A stretch of DNA of 36,346 bases. Source: Bryobacterales bacterium (GTDB taxonomy: Bacteria > Acidobacteriota > Terriglobia > Bryobacterales > Bryobacteraceae). Under the pieces are notes generated by a model. That model was not told the DNA's origin and did no database searches. It was given only the letters and a program-made list of their open reading frames with translations. This document shows, one piece after another, positions 9,115-30,114 of the stretch. Location of the stretch: the NCBI GenBank assembly GCA_020847315.1, contig JADLCF010000167.1, positions 1 through 36,346 on the forward strand. Reading direction: 5' to 3'. Position 1 is the stretch's first letter. The number at the start of each line of letters is the position of its first letter. Made by a program: the position numbers and the translations under genes.

Positions 9115-9202
9115 GTTCGAGGCCCTCCCGATTCTCGCGCCCAACCGTATTGTGTAGCATGAATGCAGGGCTTCGGAGAACGCATATCCTGGGAGGATCT
9201 GG

Positions 9203-10735
9203 ATGCTCAATCGCAGAGAATTGCTGGCAGTCGCAGCCACCGTGCCGCTGGCGAGGCTCAGCGCCGCCGAGAAGGCAGATCGCGACCGTCTGGCCGACAT
9301 GGCGATGGAACTCGCGAAAAAGGCCGGCGCCGAGTATGCCGACCTGCGCGTGAGCCGCTATGACAACGAAGGCATCTTCACGCGCGAGCGCCAGGTGCAG
9401 AATGTTTCCTCCAGTTCGAGCTACGGCTATGGGATTCGTGTGCTCAAGAAAGGGGCATGGGGCTTCTCCGCCACCAACGACTTCCGGGAGGAGGCGCTGG
9501 CGCAAGCGGTACGGAATTCCATCGAAATCGCGGAAGCGAACGGAGCCATCCAAACCAGGCCGGTTCATCTGGCTCCGCTCAAGGCGTATACAGCGAAGTG
9601 GAAGTCCGCCTATGAGATTGACCCGTTCACCATCCCGATTGAGCGCAAGGTGGACCTGCTGATGAAGGTGAACGCCGCCGCGCTCGCCACGAAGGGAGTG
9701 AGCTTCGTGAACAGCTACGTTCGCGCGGTTCGTGAAGACCGGTACTTTGCCTCAAGCCTTGGTTCCCGGATTCAGCAGGATATCGTTCGCTCGCACGGCC
9801 AGTTCATGGTGACGGCTGTGGATCGGGCGAAGGGCGATTCGCAATCCCGCCGGTCCATGATGGCGCCGATCCAGCGCGGCTGGGAAGCCATTGAAGAATA
9901 CCCGCTGGTGCAAGAGGCGGCTCAGGCCGGTGAAGAAGCGGTGATGAAACTGAAAGCCCCGGGTGTGGAACCGGGCGTCTACGATTTGCTGCTGCATCCG
10001 AACCATCTGTGGCTGACGATTCACGAAAGCTGCGGACACCCGACAGAACTCGATCGCGCGTTGGGCTACGAAGCCAACTACGCAGGGACGAGCTTCCTCA
10101 CGCCGGATAAGCTGGGCAAGTTTCAATACGGCTCCAAGTGGGTGAACATGGTGGCGGACCGGATTCAGCCTCATGGGCTGGCCACGGTGGCCTACGACGA
10201 CGATGGCGCGCCGGCACAGCGCTGGTATTTGATTCGGGATGGCGTCTTTATCGACTACCAGACGACGCGGGAGCAGGAGGGCCTTGTGCCGGGGGTGAAG
10301 GCGCACGCCTGCACGCATGCGGATTCCTGGTCCAGCGTGGTGTTCCAGCGCATGCCGAATGTTTCGCTCGATCCAATGGATAGCAAGCTCACGGAAGCGG
10401 AATTGCTCTCTGAGATCGACAACGGGATCCTGATTCTCGGCGATGGCAGTTTTTCGATCGATCAGCAGCGCTACAACTTCCAGTTCGGCGGTCAGGTTTT
10501 CTGGGAGATCAAGAATGGCAAGAAGACTCGGATGCTGCGCGACGTGGCCTACCAGGCGCGCACGCCGGAGTTCTGGAATTCCTGCGACGGCGTGGCCGGT
10601 AGGGCCGAGTATGAATTGGGCGGCGCTTTCAACGACGGAAAAGGAGAGCCGCCCCAAAGCAACGCGGTAAGCCATGGCTGCACTCCTTCCCGGTTTCGCG
10701 GCGTGAACGTGATCAATACGGGGAGGAAATCGTGA
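9203..10735 (+). CDS. TldD-family metalloprotease with Tat-like signal peptide
   Basis: HESCGHPTELDRALGYEANYAGTSF active-site region (HExxxH); N-terminus MLNRRELLAVAATVPLARLSA resembles a twin-arginine signal. Confidence 0.92.
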   Translation: MLNRRELLAVAATVPLARLSAAEKADRDRLADMAMELAKKAGAEYADLRVSRYDNEGIFTRERQVQNVSSSSSYGYGIRVLKKGAWGFSATNDFREEALAQAVRNSIEIAEANGAIQTRPVHLAPLKAYTAKWKSAYEIDPFTIPIERKVDLLMKVNAAALATKGVSFVNSYVRAVREDRYFASSLGSRIQQDIVRSHGQFMVTAVDRAKGDSQSRRSMMAPIQRGWEAIEEYPLVQEAAQAGEEAVMKLKAPGVEPGVYDLLLHPNHLWLTIHESCGHPTELDRALGYEANYAGTSFLTPDKLGKFQYGSKWVNMVADRIQPHGLATVAYDDDGAPAQRWYLIRDGVFIDYQTTREQEGLVPGVKAHACTHADSWSSVVFQRMPNVSLDPMDSKLTEAELLSEIDNGILILGDGSFSIDQQRYNFQFGGQVFWEIKNGKKTRMLRDVAYQARTPEFWNSCDGVAGRAEYELGGAFNDGKGEPPQSNAVSHGCTPSRFRGVNVINTGRKS

Positions 10736-12084
10736 CGAGCGAGCAGGCGCGAGACATTACGGGCAAGGCGCTGAAGGCGGCCGGCGTCCCAGAGGTGGAG
10801 ATCAACCTCTCCCATGACCGGCATGGCTTTCTGCGCTTCGCGCGGAATGCGCCCACGACGAGCGGCCTTACCCTTACGGGCCAGGCAAACGTTACCGCTT
10901 GGAAGGGCAAACGCAAGGCCAGCGTGGCTGGAGCGGTAGATCTTGCCAACCCGCAGAACGCCATAGATGAACTCAAACGCCTGGTGGCGCAAGCGGAGCG
11001 GCTTGCGGCGATCTCGCCGGAAGACCGCGAATACCTCCCCTTGCTTGGGCCACAGAAATACCTGGAGGTGAACGCCTACGATCCCGAGACGGCGGAGATG
11101 ACCGCGGGAAAGCGGGCGCAACATGTCGCGGACGCCATCCGCGTGGCGAATGAACGCAATGTGGTGGCGGCGGGCTTGTTCGAACAGCGCGGATCGGAGC
11201 AGGCGATTGCCAATTCCGCAGGGCTGTTTGCTTATCATCGCGGCAGTGTGGCGACATTCTCCATCACGGCACGGACACCGGATGATCGCGGGTCCGGGTA
11301 CACGGCCGTCAGTTCCAGCCGCATAGGTGGGCTGGACTTCAAGGAGACTGCCGCGATGGCCGCGCACAAGGCGGTGGAATCCCGGAACGGGCGGGAGATA
11401 AAGCCGCAAGACTATCCGACGATTCTCGAGCCGCAAGCGGTGGCGGACCTCATCGGCAACATGATGCGCGGCATTCTGGACGCTCGCAGAGCCGATGAGG
11501 GCCGCAGTGTTTTTTCCGGTCAGGATGGGAAGACGCACATGGGCCAGAGAATTTTCGACCCCAGGGTGAGCGTCTATACCGATCCGGCGAATCGGACCAT
11601 CCCATCGCGGCCGTTTGACGAGGACGGTTTCCCAATCAGGGCGGCCGACTTCATCCGGGATGGGGTGCTCAAGAACCTCACATATTCCCGTTACTGGGCG
11701 GAGCGGAGCAAGAAACAGGCCGGACCTTTCCTGAATAATTTGATCATGGATGGAACGGATGCGCCCCTGTCGAAGCTCATAGAGAATACTGAGCGGGGAG
11801 TGCTGGTGACGCGGCTCTGGTACATTCGTCCGGTGGATCCGCAGCAGGCGCTTTATACCGGTCTCACGCGGGACGGCTTGTTCTGGATCGAAGATGGAAA
11901 GATTCAGCATCCGTTGAAGAACTTCCGGTTTAATGAGAGCCCGTACCGGCTGCTGGGCGATGTCGACGAGATCGGCCAGGTGCTGCCGGTGGTGGCGGGG
12001 GAACGTTATGGCGATTTCCGCATGATGCTGCCCGCGCTGCGGCTGAAGAGTTTCCGGTTTACCTCGATCTCCGACGCGGTGTAG
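10732..12084 (+). CDS. TldE/PmbA-family protein, partner of upstream TldD
   Basis: 450 aa; GTG start overlaps TldD stop (GTGA); PmbA/TldD-type C-terminal features (GQDGKTHMGQRIFDPRVSVYTDP, RPFDEDGFPIRAADFIRDGVLKNLTYSRYWA); no HExxxH. Confidence 0.88.
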   Translation: MTSEQARDITGKALKAAGVPEVEINLSHDRHGFLRFARNAPTTSGLTLTGQANVTAWKGKRKASVAGAVDLANPQNAIDELKRLVAQAERLAAISPEDREYLPLLGPQKYLEVNAYDPETAEMTAGKRAQHVADAIRVANERNVVAAGLFEQRGSEQAIANSAGLFAYHRGSVATFSITARTPDDRGSGYTAVSSSRIGGLDFKETAAMAAHKAVESRNGREIKPQDYPTILEPQAVADLIGNMMRGILDARRADEGRSVFSGQDGKTHMGQRIFDPRVSVYTDPANRTIPSRPFDEDGFPIRAADFIRDGVLKNLTYSRYWAERSKKQAGPFLNNLIMDGTDAPLSKLIENTERGVLVTRLWYIRPVDPQQALYTGLTRDGLFWIEDGKIQHPLKNFRFNESPYRLLGDVDEIGQVLPVVAGERYGDFRMMLPALRLKSFRFTSISDAV

Positions 12085-12202
12085 GCCGGAGGAAATCAGA
12101 GGTGACCGGGCAGGCTCGTCGTTTGGGAATGGCTGGCCGGCACGCGGCGATGGGAATCCCGTATCAATGAGGATTGCCCATTTTGCAGAGAGGAAAAGAG
12201 TG

Positions 12203-13528
12203 ATGATGAAAGAGCCATCGCGGCGGAGCATGCTCTACGCTACGGCCGCCGCGCTGCCAATGACGGCGCGATCGTACGCGCGAATTCTCGGAGCCAATGA
12301 CCGGATCCAGATCGGGCAGATCGGATGCGGCCACCGCGCGGGCGGACACAGGCTGATGCTGAAGAAGTCCGCCGCCACGGATTCGAAGTTTGACGTTCGG
12401 AGTGTTTGCGATCTTTGGAGCGTGAACCGGGAAAGGGCGGCGGCGAGTGTGGAGAAACTCTTCGGCGCCCGCCCGAAGATGTATCAATACTCCGAGCAAA
12501 TCCTGGCGGACTCGGACTTGGACGCAGTGATGATCGGCACGGGCGATCATCAGCATGCAAGAGTCCTCGCAGAGGTGGTGCGGGCCGGGAAGGATTGCTA
12601 TTGCGAAAAACCGATGGCGAATACGCTTGAGGACGCCAAACTTGCTCGCGACGCTGTGCGCGGCAGCAAGCAGGTGGTACAGATGGGATCCCAGTGGCTG
12701 AGCGACCCGTATCAGTGGCAGGTTCGCGAGATTGTGCGAAGCGGAAAGCTGGGCAAGATCGTAGCCATCGACCAGAGCTGGAACTTCAATGGCCCGCGCT
12801 GGGATTCGCCGAAGAACCCGGATATCGCCCTATTGCGCGAACAGGATACAGATTGGAAGCGCTGGCTGCTGGGGCGTCCATGGCGTCCTTTCGATCCGAG
12901 GGTTTACTTCGAGTTCCGCATCTTCAAGGAATTCTCCGGCGGAATTACGGACCAATGGTACAGCCACGGGAGCGGCCTCGCCCATTTCTACCTGGACACT
13001 TTCATTCCCGACGACACGGTGGCGAACGGCGGAATCTTCGCGTGGCATGATGTGCGCGAGAATCCAGATACCTTCCAGTGCGTCTCCACGTTCGCGGAGA
13101 GGGAAGTGCTATATAGCTATAGCACGACCTTTGGGAATGCGTATGGCGACCACACGATCATCCGCGGCACGCGCGGCACGCTCTACTCGCCGGGAGGGGA
13201 GGGCAGCCCGCAATGGTGGTTCCTTCCTGAAACGAGGAGCGGGTGGGGCGGCCACGTGATTTTCGACTTGAAGCTGGGCAAGGTGAAACCGGAACCGGTT
13301 ACACTTCCCGGGAATCCGGAAGTGCCTCCCGTGAATCAGGACGACAATCTCAAGGCTCACACGGACAACTGGCTGGCGTGCATGCGCAGCCGGAAGACGC
13401 CGAATGGCGACATCGAGACGGGATTTGCGCATTCGGTCGCGGTGGTGATGGCGAACCGCAGCTATCGTGAAGGGAAGAAGATGTATTGGGACCGGAAGAA
13501 CGAGCGGATTCTGGATCATCCCGTTTAG
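12203..13528 (+). CDS. Gfo/Idh/MocA family oxidoreductase, Tat-signal-bearing
   Basis: MMKEPSRRSMLYATAAALPMTARS twin-arginine-like leader; IQIGQIGCGHRAGGH Rossmann; GKDCYCEKPMANTLEDAK (EKP motif). Start at 12203/12206 preferred over 12167 because of upstream GAGAGGAAAAGAG. Confidence 0.9.
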   Translation: MMKEPSRRSMLYATAAALPMTARSYARILGANDRIQIGQIGCGHRAGGHRLMLKKSAATDSKFDVRSVCDLWSVNRERAAASVEKLFGARPKMYQYSEQILADSDLDAVMIGTGDHQHARVLAEVVRAGKDCYCEKPMANTLEDAKLARDAVRGSKQVVQMGSQWLSDPYQWQVREIVRSGKLGKIVAIDQSWNFNGPRWDSPKNPDIALLREQDTDWKRWLLGRPWRPFDPRVYFEFRIFKEFSGGITDQWYSHGSGLAHFYLDTFIPDDTVANGGIFAWHDVRENPDTFQCVSTFAEREVLYSYSTTFGNAYGDHTIIRGTRGTLYSPGGEGSPQWWFLPETRSGWGGHVIFDLKLGKVKPEPVTLPGNPEVPPVNQDDNLKAHTDNWLACMRSRKTPNGDIETGFAHSVAVVMANRSYREGKKMYWDRKNERILDHPV

Positions 13529-28493: not shown

Positions 28494-28536
28494 GCGGGCG
28501 GCTTCGGAATCCGGCGAAAGAACAGTGGGTGGAAAC

Positions 28537-30114
28537 ATGACACGTAGGGAACTGGTGCAGGCAGGCAGCGCGACGTTGGGAGCGGCTGCTGCATTGGGTG
28601 CGCAAGCCCTCCCGGAGAAGCAGGTTGCATACCGCAATTTTTTCGGGGATCTGCACAACCACAACCAGGTCGGTTACGCGCAGGGCACGCTTGAACGTAG
28701 TTTCGAGATCGCCCGGAATCATCTGGACTTCTATGCCTTCACGCCGCACTCCTATTGGCCCGATATGGGCGCATACGACGGCCGCATCGAGACTAAGTGG
28801 CGGAACGGATTTTACGTCGCCAAGGCAAACTGGCCGGAGGTGGTGAAGCTGGCCAGGCAATATGACGACCCGGGCCGCTTCGTCACCATTCTCGGATACG
28901 AGCGGCATGGCGCGGCGGAGGGGGATTATCACATCCTGTACCCGGATCTGAAGGGCGATTACGAACTGATTGCGGATCTGCCGGCGCTGCAGGCCTTCGC
29001 TCGCGAGAGAGGCTGCATTCTGGTTCCCCACCACCCGGCGAACCGATTGGGCCATCGCGGCATCAATGCGCACGCGGTGGATGCGCGAGTTTCGCCAGTT
29101 CTGGAGATTCACTCCGAGTGGGGCTGCGCCGAACACGACCGCGCGCCGAACCCATACAAGCGGCACACGGAGGGCGGGCGTTGGACCAGGCACACGCTGC
29201 AGCACTATCTGGCACAGGGGATGCGCTTCGGCGTGGTGGCCAGCACCGACGACCATCTCGGGTATCCCGGCGCGTACCGCGAGGGACTCGCCGTGGTGAA
29301 GACCACCGAACTCACCCGCGAGGCGATCTTCGATGCGATCCGGAATCGGCGGACGTACGCGGTGACCGGAGACCGCATCGATCTCGACTTCCATTTGAAT
29401 GGCCGCATCATGGGGCAGGAACTCCCGTATGCGCGCACACGTTCCCTGGCGGTGGAAGTCCGCGGCTGGGACGTCGTGGACCGGGTGGAAGTGCTCAAGA
29501 ATAACCGCGTCGTACACCGCGATTTCCCCATGGATGCGGCGCCCACGGCGGAAAGTTGGCGCAGGCCGGTGACACTTCGATTTGAGTACGGTTGGGGGCC
29601 ATGGCCCGCTCTGGGATGGGGCGGCACGGCGGATTGGGAGTTTACCGTCACCGTCGAGAACGGGAAATTCGAAGCCGTGCAACCTTGCTTTGTGACAGGA
29701 CCACTCGACGAGTTCCGGCGGGACCGGATTCTCGAGCGCACGGAGACCTCCGTGAAGGTGCGAAGCTTCACCGCGCTCAAGCAGCAGGTGGACGACTATT
29801 CTCAGAAGGCGATCGTTCTACGCGTCCAGGGCGGGCCGGAAACGCGCGTGACCGTCACATGCACCCGGCCGAAGCCATGCTCCCTGACGCAGACGTTCGC
29901 GCAGTTGAGCGAATCGAACGAAATGCTCTTCACGGCAAAGTTTCCGTGGGAATCCGCCATGCTGCACCGGGTGGTGTTTGAAGAGAATTATCTGAGCCGC
30001 TTTACGTTTGAGGACGAGGACGAAGGCCTAGAGGCGAACTGGTATTATGTGCGAGTGGTGCAGGCCAATGGGGAACTCGCTTGGTCCAGCCCCATTTGGG
30101 TGGAGAAGGCTTAG
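28537..30114 (+). CDS. Tat-exported PHP-like metallohydrolase (DUF3604-like)
   Basis: MTRRELVQAGSATLGAAAALGAQA Tat-like leader; FGDLHNHN, HHPANRLGHRG, LEIHSEWGCAEHD, STDDHLGYPG metal-binding motifs. Confidence 0.8.
   Translation: MTRRELVQAGSATLGAAAALGAQALPEKQVAYRNFFGDLHNHNQVGYAQGTLERSFEIARNHLDFYAFTPHSYWPDMGAYDGRIETKWRNGFYVAKANWPEVVKLARQYDDPGRFVTILGYERHGAAEGDYHILYPDLKGDYELIADLPALQAFARERGCILVPHHPANRLGHRGINAHAVDARVSPVLEIHSEWGCAEHDRAPNPYKRHTEGGRWTRHTLQHYLAQGMRFGVVASTDDHLGYPGAYREGLAVVKTTELTREAIFDAIRNRRTYAVTGDRIDLDFHLNGRIMGQELPYARTRSLAVEVRGWDVVDRVEVLKNNRVVHRDFPMDAAPTAESWRRPVTLRFEYGWGPWPALGWGGTADWEFTVTVENGKFEAVQPCFVTGPLDEFRRDRILERTETSVKVRSFTALKQQVDDYSQKAIVLRVQGGPETRVTVTCTRPKPCSLTQTFAQLSESNEMLFTAKFPWESAMLHRVVFEENYLSRFTFEDEDEGLEANWYYVRVVQANGELAWSSPIWVEKA

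Follow-up and report, generated by a model that had tools for sequence, protein, structure and literature searches.

Can a TldD/TldE peptidase pair act outside the cytoplasm when only one of its two proteins carries a twin-arginine leader? The question is raised by two overlapping genes in a stretch of 36,346 nucleotides from a Bryobacterales bacterium (the window), which is contig C167 of a draft genome (G000; 4.75 Mb, 404 contigs, 87% complete). TldD and TldE occur in about 60% of bacterial genomes and their everyday role is unclear; in E. coli they form a stable closed heterodimer, about 65 Å across, which threads unfolded N-termini to an inner zinc site and whose activity requires both proteins (PMC5810440). 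Judging from sequence comparison, we consider it probable that the window pair is a Tat-exported heterodimeric metallopeptidase of the MEROPS M103 type, in which TldE would be carried along as a hitchhiker.

The gene pair and its leader

The features of the locus are collected in table 1. As read from the sequence, the overlap between tldD and tldE is GTGA, and TldE, for which the earlier note had claimed an overlapping start and no signal, does indeed lack a leader. The tldD gene is under purifying selection, its codon changes relative to a congeneric locus (L008) being mostly synonymous. All three Pfam PmbA_TldD domains are above the cut-off in TldD and two, the central and the C-terminal, in TldE. 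The best PDB relatives of TldD are E. coli TldD structures, both by profile (5nj5, E 1.5e-23) and by Foldseek with a partly confident model (5njc), and those of TldE are PmbA-like TldE proteins.

Table 1. Features of the tldD/tldE locus, in window coordinates.
Feature	Position	Strand	Basis and remarks
Shine-Dalgarno GGGAGG of tldD	9191..9196	+	6 nt 5' of ATG; kept in L007, as CGGGAGG in L008
tldD-like metallopeptidase subunit	9203..10735	+	ATG start, 510 aa; Pfam PF01523, PF19290 and PF19289 above cut-off; 5nj5 by profile, 5njc by Foldseek
Predicted Tat-type leader, TldD residues 1-22 (MLNRRELLAVAATVPLARLSAA)	9203..9268	+	RR at 9212-9217; RR leader in 68/76 Asp-type relatives
HExxxH metal motif HESCGH, TldD residues 274-279	10022..10039	+	Sequence and alignments
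Asp478-Gly-Lys480	10634..10642	+	Alignments; Asp478 at E. coli TldD Cys454, Lys480 at Lys456
Shine-Dalgarno GGGGAGG of tldE	10720..10726	+	Within the 3' end of tldD; read from sequence
tldE-like non-catalytic partner	10732..12084	+	GTG start, 450 aa; no leader, no HExxxH

The two-protein make-up and the Pfam domains are those of E. coli TldD/TldE (PmbA; MEROPS M103; PDB 5nj5/5njc), and both pairs share the HExxxH motif, in TldD only, and the Lys/Glu/Asp network by the metal. On the other hand, identity between the two TldDs is only about 20%, the window TldD has a leader and Asp478 where that of E. coli is leaderless and uses Cys454 as a ligand, and the E. coli genes are not adjacent. The window TldD scores 54.8 bits against the canonical NCBIfam equivalog NF008006, for which the cut-off is 513, and the pair lies far under the equivalog cut-offs for both TldD and PmbA.

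The N-terminus of the window TldD reads MLNRRELLAVAATVPLARLSAAEKAD, with a twin arginine followed by a hydrophobic stretch (MLNRRELLAVAATVPLA); the best 11-residue hydropathy of this leader, 2.25, is joint top among the compared TldDs. The TATFIND rule asks for an uncharged h-region of at least 13 residues; this region counts 11 residues in the window TldD, where Arg18 follows, and 16 in the closest relative (L007), which has no Arg at that position. Among congeneric TldDs the leader sequence varies (MLNRRELLAIAATVPLTSLNAA in L007, MLNRREWLAIAATVPLARLTAA in L008), but MLNRRE is retained. A wrongly assigned start of tldD was considered and rejected, because 9203 is the start that the Shine-Dalgarno sequence fits, whereas codons 33 and 35, the first in-frame ATGs after it, lack one; a conserved downstream start, which the earlier note had named as evidence against its own reading, is absent from the window lineage.

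A gene for TatC is present in the same genome (contig C90, E 1.1e-62), with a TatA/B-like ORF adjoining it. RR leaders are also found on two further window proteins, a Gfo/Idh/MocA oxidoreductase near tldDE (12167-13528, MKEPSRRSMLYATAAALPMTARSYA) and a DUF3604 protein (28525-30114, MTRRELVQAGSATLGAAAALGA); Tat is much used in this genome.

The entire tldDE region is syntenic within the genus, and outside it the neighbouring genes vary by lineage. A RiPP cluster was ruled out, since no precursor or modification genes adjoin the pair and its neighbours are ordinary and differ between lineages. E. coli TldD/E is also active from outside its clusters, and the window pair may therefore still act in RiPP maturation in trans.

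Conservation of the leader asymmetry

Named genomes, together with 297 from the phylum and 150 from the order, supplied the relatives, and 101 TldD N-termini were inspected. By the residue that aligns with E. coli Cys454 these TldDs were divided into 76 of Asp type, the window TldD included, and 25 of Cys type, which comprise the closest paralogues and canonical TldDs. The leader test combined an RR motif, a hydrophobic stretch and an upstream start codon. A Tat leader was found in 68 of the 76 Asp-type TldDs, a count that includes four additions made by eye (L044, L062, L066 and L089, the last with MFTRRQF), and in none of the 25 Cys-type TldDs. Its usual form is [ST]RR.F[LIVM] soon after the start, followed by a hydrophobic stretch. 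Chance occurrence of the RR was excluded on these counts together with the background of the simple test, which is 6/98 for other ORFs of at least 250 codons from the same loci and 1.8% for shuffled leaders. The twin-arginine leader that the earlier note had read in TldD is thus kept in orthologues that share as little as about 36-50% identity; its absence there had been named as a refuting point. The eight Asp-type TldDs without a leader (L012, L013, L015, L026, L027, L030, L031 and L034) begin at the first helix, which implies that the Asp-type enzyme has no strict need for export.

An RR motif was found on none of the 65 readable TldEs adjacent to Asp-type TldDs, 57 of which neighbour a Tat-bearing TldD. 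The hydrophobic-stretch test was positive in 10 of the 65, but a hidden leader was ruled out, because the best 12 hydrophobic matches correspond to the TldE domain's own first helix, with nothing added N-terminally. A leader on TldD and none on TldE is therefore a stable trait of the family, beyond a single locus. In almost every relative the two genes stand side by side, and in the close ones they overlap or come near to doing so.

Tat-bearing Asp-type TldDs occur in several acidobacterial families and on contigs titled Latescibacterota and Gammaproteobacteria (L016, L017), and in a relative from Myxococcaceae (L015) the Asp-type TldD is one of those without a leader. The Tat-leader Asp type is a widespread variant, new within this known family of peptidases, and is found mostly in Acidobacteriota but in other phyla too. 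A scan of viral contigs returned no relatives, and among the members checked in a plasmid search there were Cys-type or distant ones only. In four TldDs (L014, L016, L033 and L035) a Cys closes the Tat leader (QWGCG, GFGCS, QWACG), making Tat lipoproteins possible in one subclade.

An altered metal site

In E. coli TldD the third zinc ligand is Cys454, and a role is also given to Lys456 (PMC5810440). The claim of the earlier note that the HESCGH motif is intact holds for the motif but does not extend to the full metal site, where the equivalent of Cys454, which that note did not mention, is Asp478. Asp occupies this position in all 76 Asp-type TldDs, every Tat-bearing TldD among them, and according to the alignment the residues matching E. 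coli Glu270, Asp272 and Lys456 are kept in the window TldD. The register against E. coli alone is ambiguous by two residues (hhalign places it 2 off). However, the Cys-type paralogues carry NCGKGQP.Q where Asp-type TldDs have NDGKGEP.Q, and these CGKGQP intermediates fix Asp478 on Cys454. The metal ligands of the window TldD are probably two His and one Asp, where those of E. coli TldD are two His and one Cys. Asp is known as the third ligand from other HExxH zinc peptidases, such as the M35 deuterolysin. An AlphaFold model built from 11 sequences has a pLDDT of about 25 past residue 254, that is, in the catalytic domain, and the ligand swap is therefore argued from the alignment rather than from a three-dimensional view of the site.

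The Cys-type paralogues of Acidobacteriota (L045, L047-L049, L058, L107-L111 and others) are 37-43% identical to the window TldD and likewise stand in tandem with TldE, but they are leaderless and have CGKGQP, in contrast to the leader and DGKGEP of the window protein. In the tree the Tat-bearing Asp-type TldDs form two blocks, with leaderless Asp-type TldDs nested inside one of them, and the best tree implies two changes of the ligand and five of the leader. As a single origin of Asp is compatible with the data (AU p 0.14), Asp and leader, for which there are only two independent contrasts, are claimed here as an association and not as an established convergence. Our hypothesis is that the swap from Cys to Asp is an adaptation to the periplasm.

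Variation around the metal site was seen in several places. Many Tat-type TldDs of the family (L084, L087, L090, L094-L106 and others) have HESVAH, in which Ala replaces the Gly that precedes the second histidine of HExxxH. L044, L062 and L066 form a subclade with HEII[GA]H; in their N-terminal domain a long insert rich in Gly separates the first helix from the GFGVRVI stretch. A leaderless pair on a plasmid (NZ_CP083743.1, Mycobacterium ulcerans record; L139:2896-4413) has a TldD that combines the Cys ligand (NCGKAQP) with the SHGC motif typical of the Asp type, and may possibly be an intermediate between the two types.

Probable export of the pair and competing explanations

The same genome holds one further TldD/PmbA-like pair, on contig C282 (L050:1567-3459 and to 5282), with Sec-type signals on both partners (MLRTVKRAILGGVFLCGLLAGAARSPAQ on the catalytic one, MIRFARHRSVRHALLTPALLLAALSGLMGLATPPALAQ on the other). 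A cytosolic second copy, the presence of which the earlier note had proposed to check, was ruled out: PF01523 matches the window gene alone, and PF19289 adds only this Sec-type pair. G304, a congeneric genome with 99% completeness, likewise has these two pairs and no canonical cytosolic one, and two genomes of the same family (G302, G399) have three pairs each, canonical, Tat-type and Sec-type. At least one TldD/E pair was found in all 61 family genomes searched; judged by score, the canonical pair is absent in 15.

The gene layout, the leader, the conserved asymmetry, the altered ligand position and the presence of TatC are the observations from which a mechanism can be proposed. TldD and TldE would be co-produced from their overlapping genes; in the cytoplasm they would assemble into a folded, metal-loaded heterodimer of closed, near-spherical shape, and the folded pair would then cross the inner membrane as one unit via Tat, using the single leader of TldD, and would trim unfolded N-terminal peptide ends in the periplasm. 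Tat carries folded proteins, and some heterodimers with a single signal are among its substrates (PMC10924467). Given such substrates and a pre-formed folded shell, a leader on TldD alone is what co-export would call for. Sec would demand a signal on each chain, as in the C282 pair, and therefore a pair with a single leader would be expected to fold and metallate inside and to leave as a unit. The hitchhiking of TldE suggested by the earlier note is compatible with all 57 Tat-type pairs examined. In known Tat hitchhiker heterodimers (Ni-Fe hydrogenases, formate dehydrogenases; PaoABC) the RR leader is likewise on one subunit only (PMC10924467, PMC4273604); those are cofactor-bearing redox enzymes, whereas the window pair is a predicted peptidase with putative co-export. 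The full-text literature searched, whose reach excluded most subscription papers, contained no link between TldD and Tat and no exported TldD/E.

Several other explanations were weighed against co-export. TldD alone might be exported, or anchored in the membrane by an uncleaved leader, as a homodimer, with TldE staying in the cytoplasm in another role. The invariable lack of a leader on TldE would fit, as would the homodimers that E. coli TldD can form in solution (PMC5810440), but the close coupling of the two genes across relatives speaks against it and the genus offers no other leaderless TldD as a partner for TldE, making this very unlikely. It is also rather improbable that the leader is a conserved, non-exporting N-terminal extension of a cytoplasmic pair doing ordinary TldD/E work. 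The eight leaderless Asp-type relatives and the RR-test background of 6%, which is above zero, agree with such an extension, and to our knowledge all characterised TldD/E act in the cytoplasm; against it, [ST]RR.F[LIVM] and the hydrophobic stretch are kept at 36-50% identity across many families and are absent from all Cys-type TldDs, and carriers of the Tat-type pair within the family, such as G302 and G399, often own a separate canonical cytosolic pair.

The reaction itself could also differ, the exported enzyme having the TldD/E fold but performing, for example, N-deacylation. The changed metal ligand, the scores far under both equivalog cut-offs and the lack of RiPP or other conserved neighbour genes are in keeping with this, and a review title cited in PMC10885120 names N-deacetylases in the TldD/TldE family; as HExxxH, Lys480, the equivalents Glu282 and Asp284 and the overall fold are all retained, we regard such a reaction as unlikely.

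Returning to the co-exported peptidase, a broader scenario seems to us evenly balanced: a widespread branch of TldD/E was relocated outside the cytoplasm, gaining a Tat leader with TldE riding along and exchanging Cys for Asp, and the genus lost its cytosolic pair and kept exported TldD/E-like pairs only. Beyond the reducing cytoplasm the Cys ligand is perhaps a liability, which would be the reason for the exchange. If the pair is exported, this pencil-sharpener peptidase would also act on periplasmic or incoming peptides, and a Tat hitchhiker would be a peptidase instead of a redox enzyme. The natural exchange of Cys for Asp at a catalytic metal would coincide with a change of compartment.

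The C282 pair, which like the window pair is TldD/E-like and appears exported, is very distant from it in sequence, has signals on both partners and keeps the Cys ligand, together with HEIFGH, in its catalytic partner; it appears to be another peptidase pair destined for export. In three genomes of the genus an ORF for an LptF/LptG-like permease comes immediately after this Sec-type pair (L050:1567-5282; L119/L127, L116/L121). In the Sec-type pair of G399 (L131; C1, ~4980819-4982300) the non-catalytic partner starts with MISRRGWLWTGLAASSRLLVSKAWAQ, an RR leader, and the catalytic partner has a Sec-type-looking signal, so that the signals appear to be swapped or mixed between the partners.
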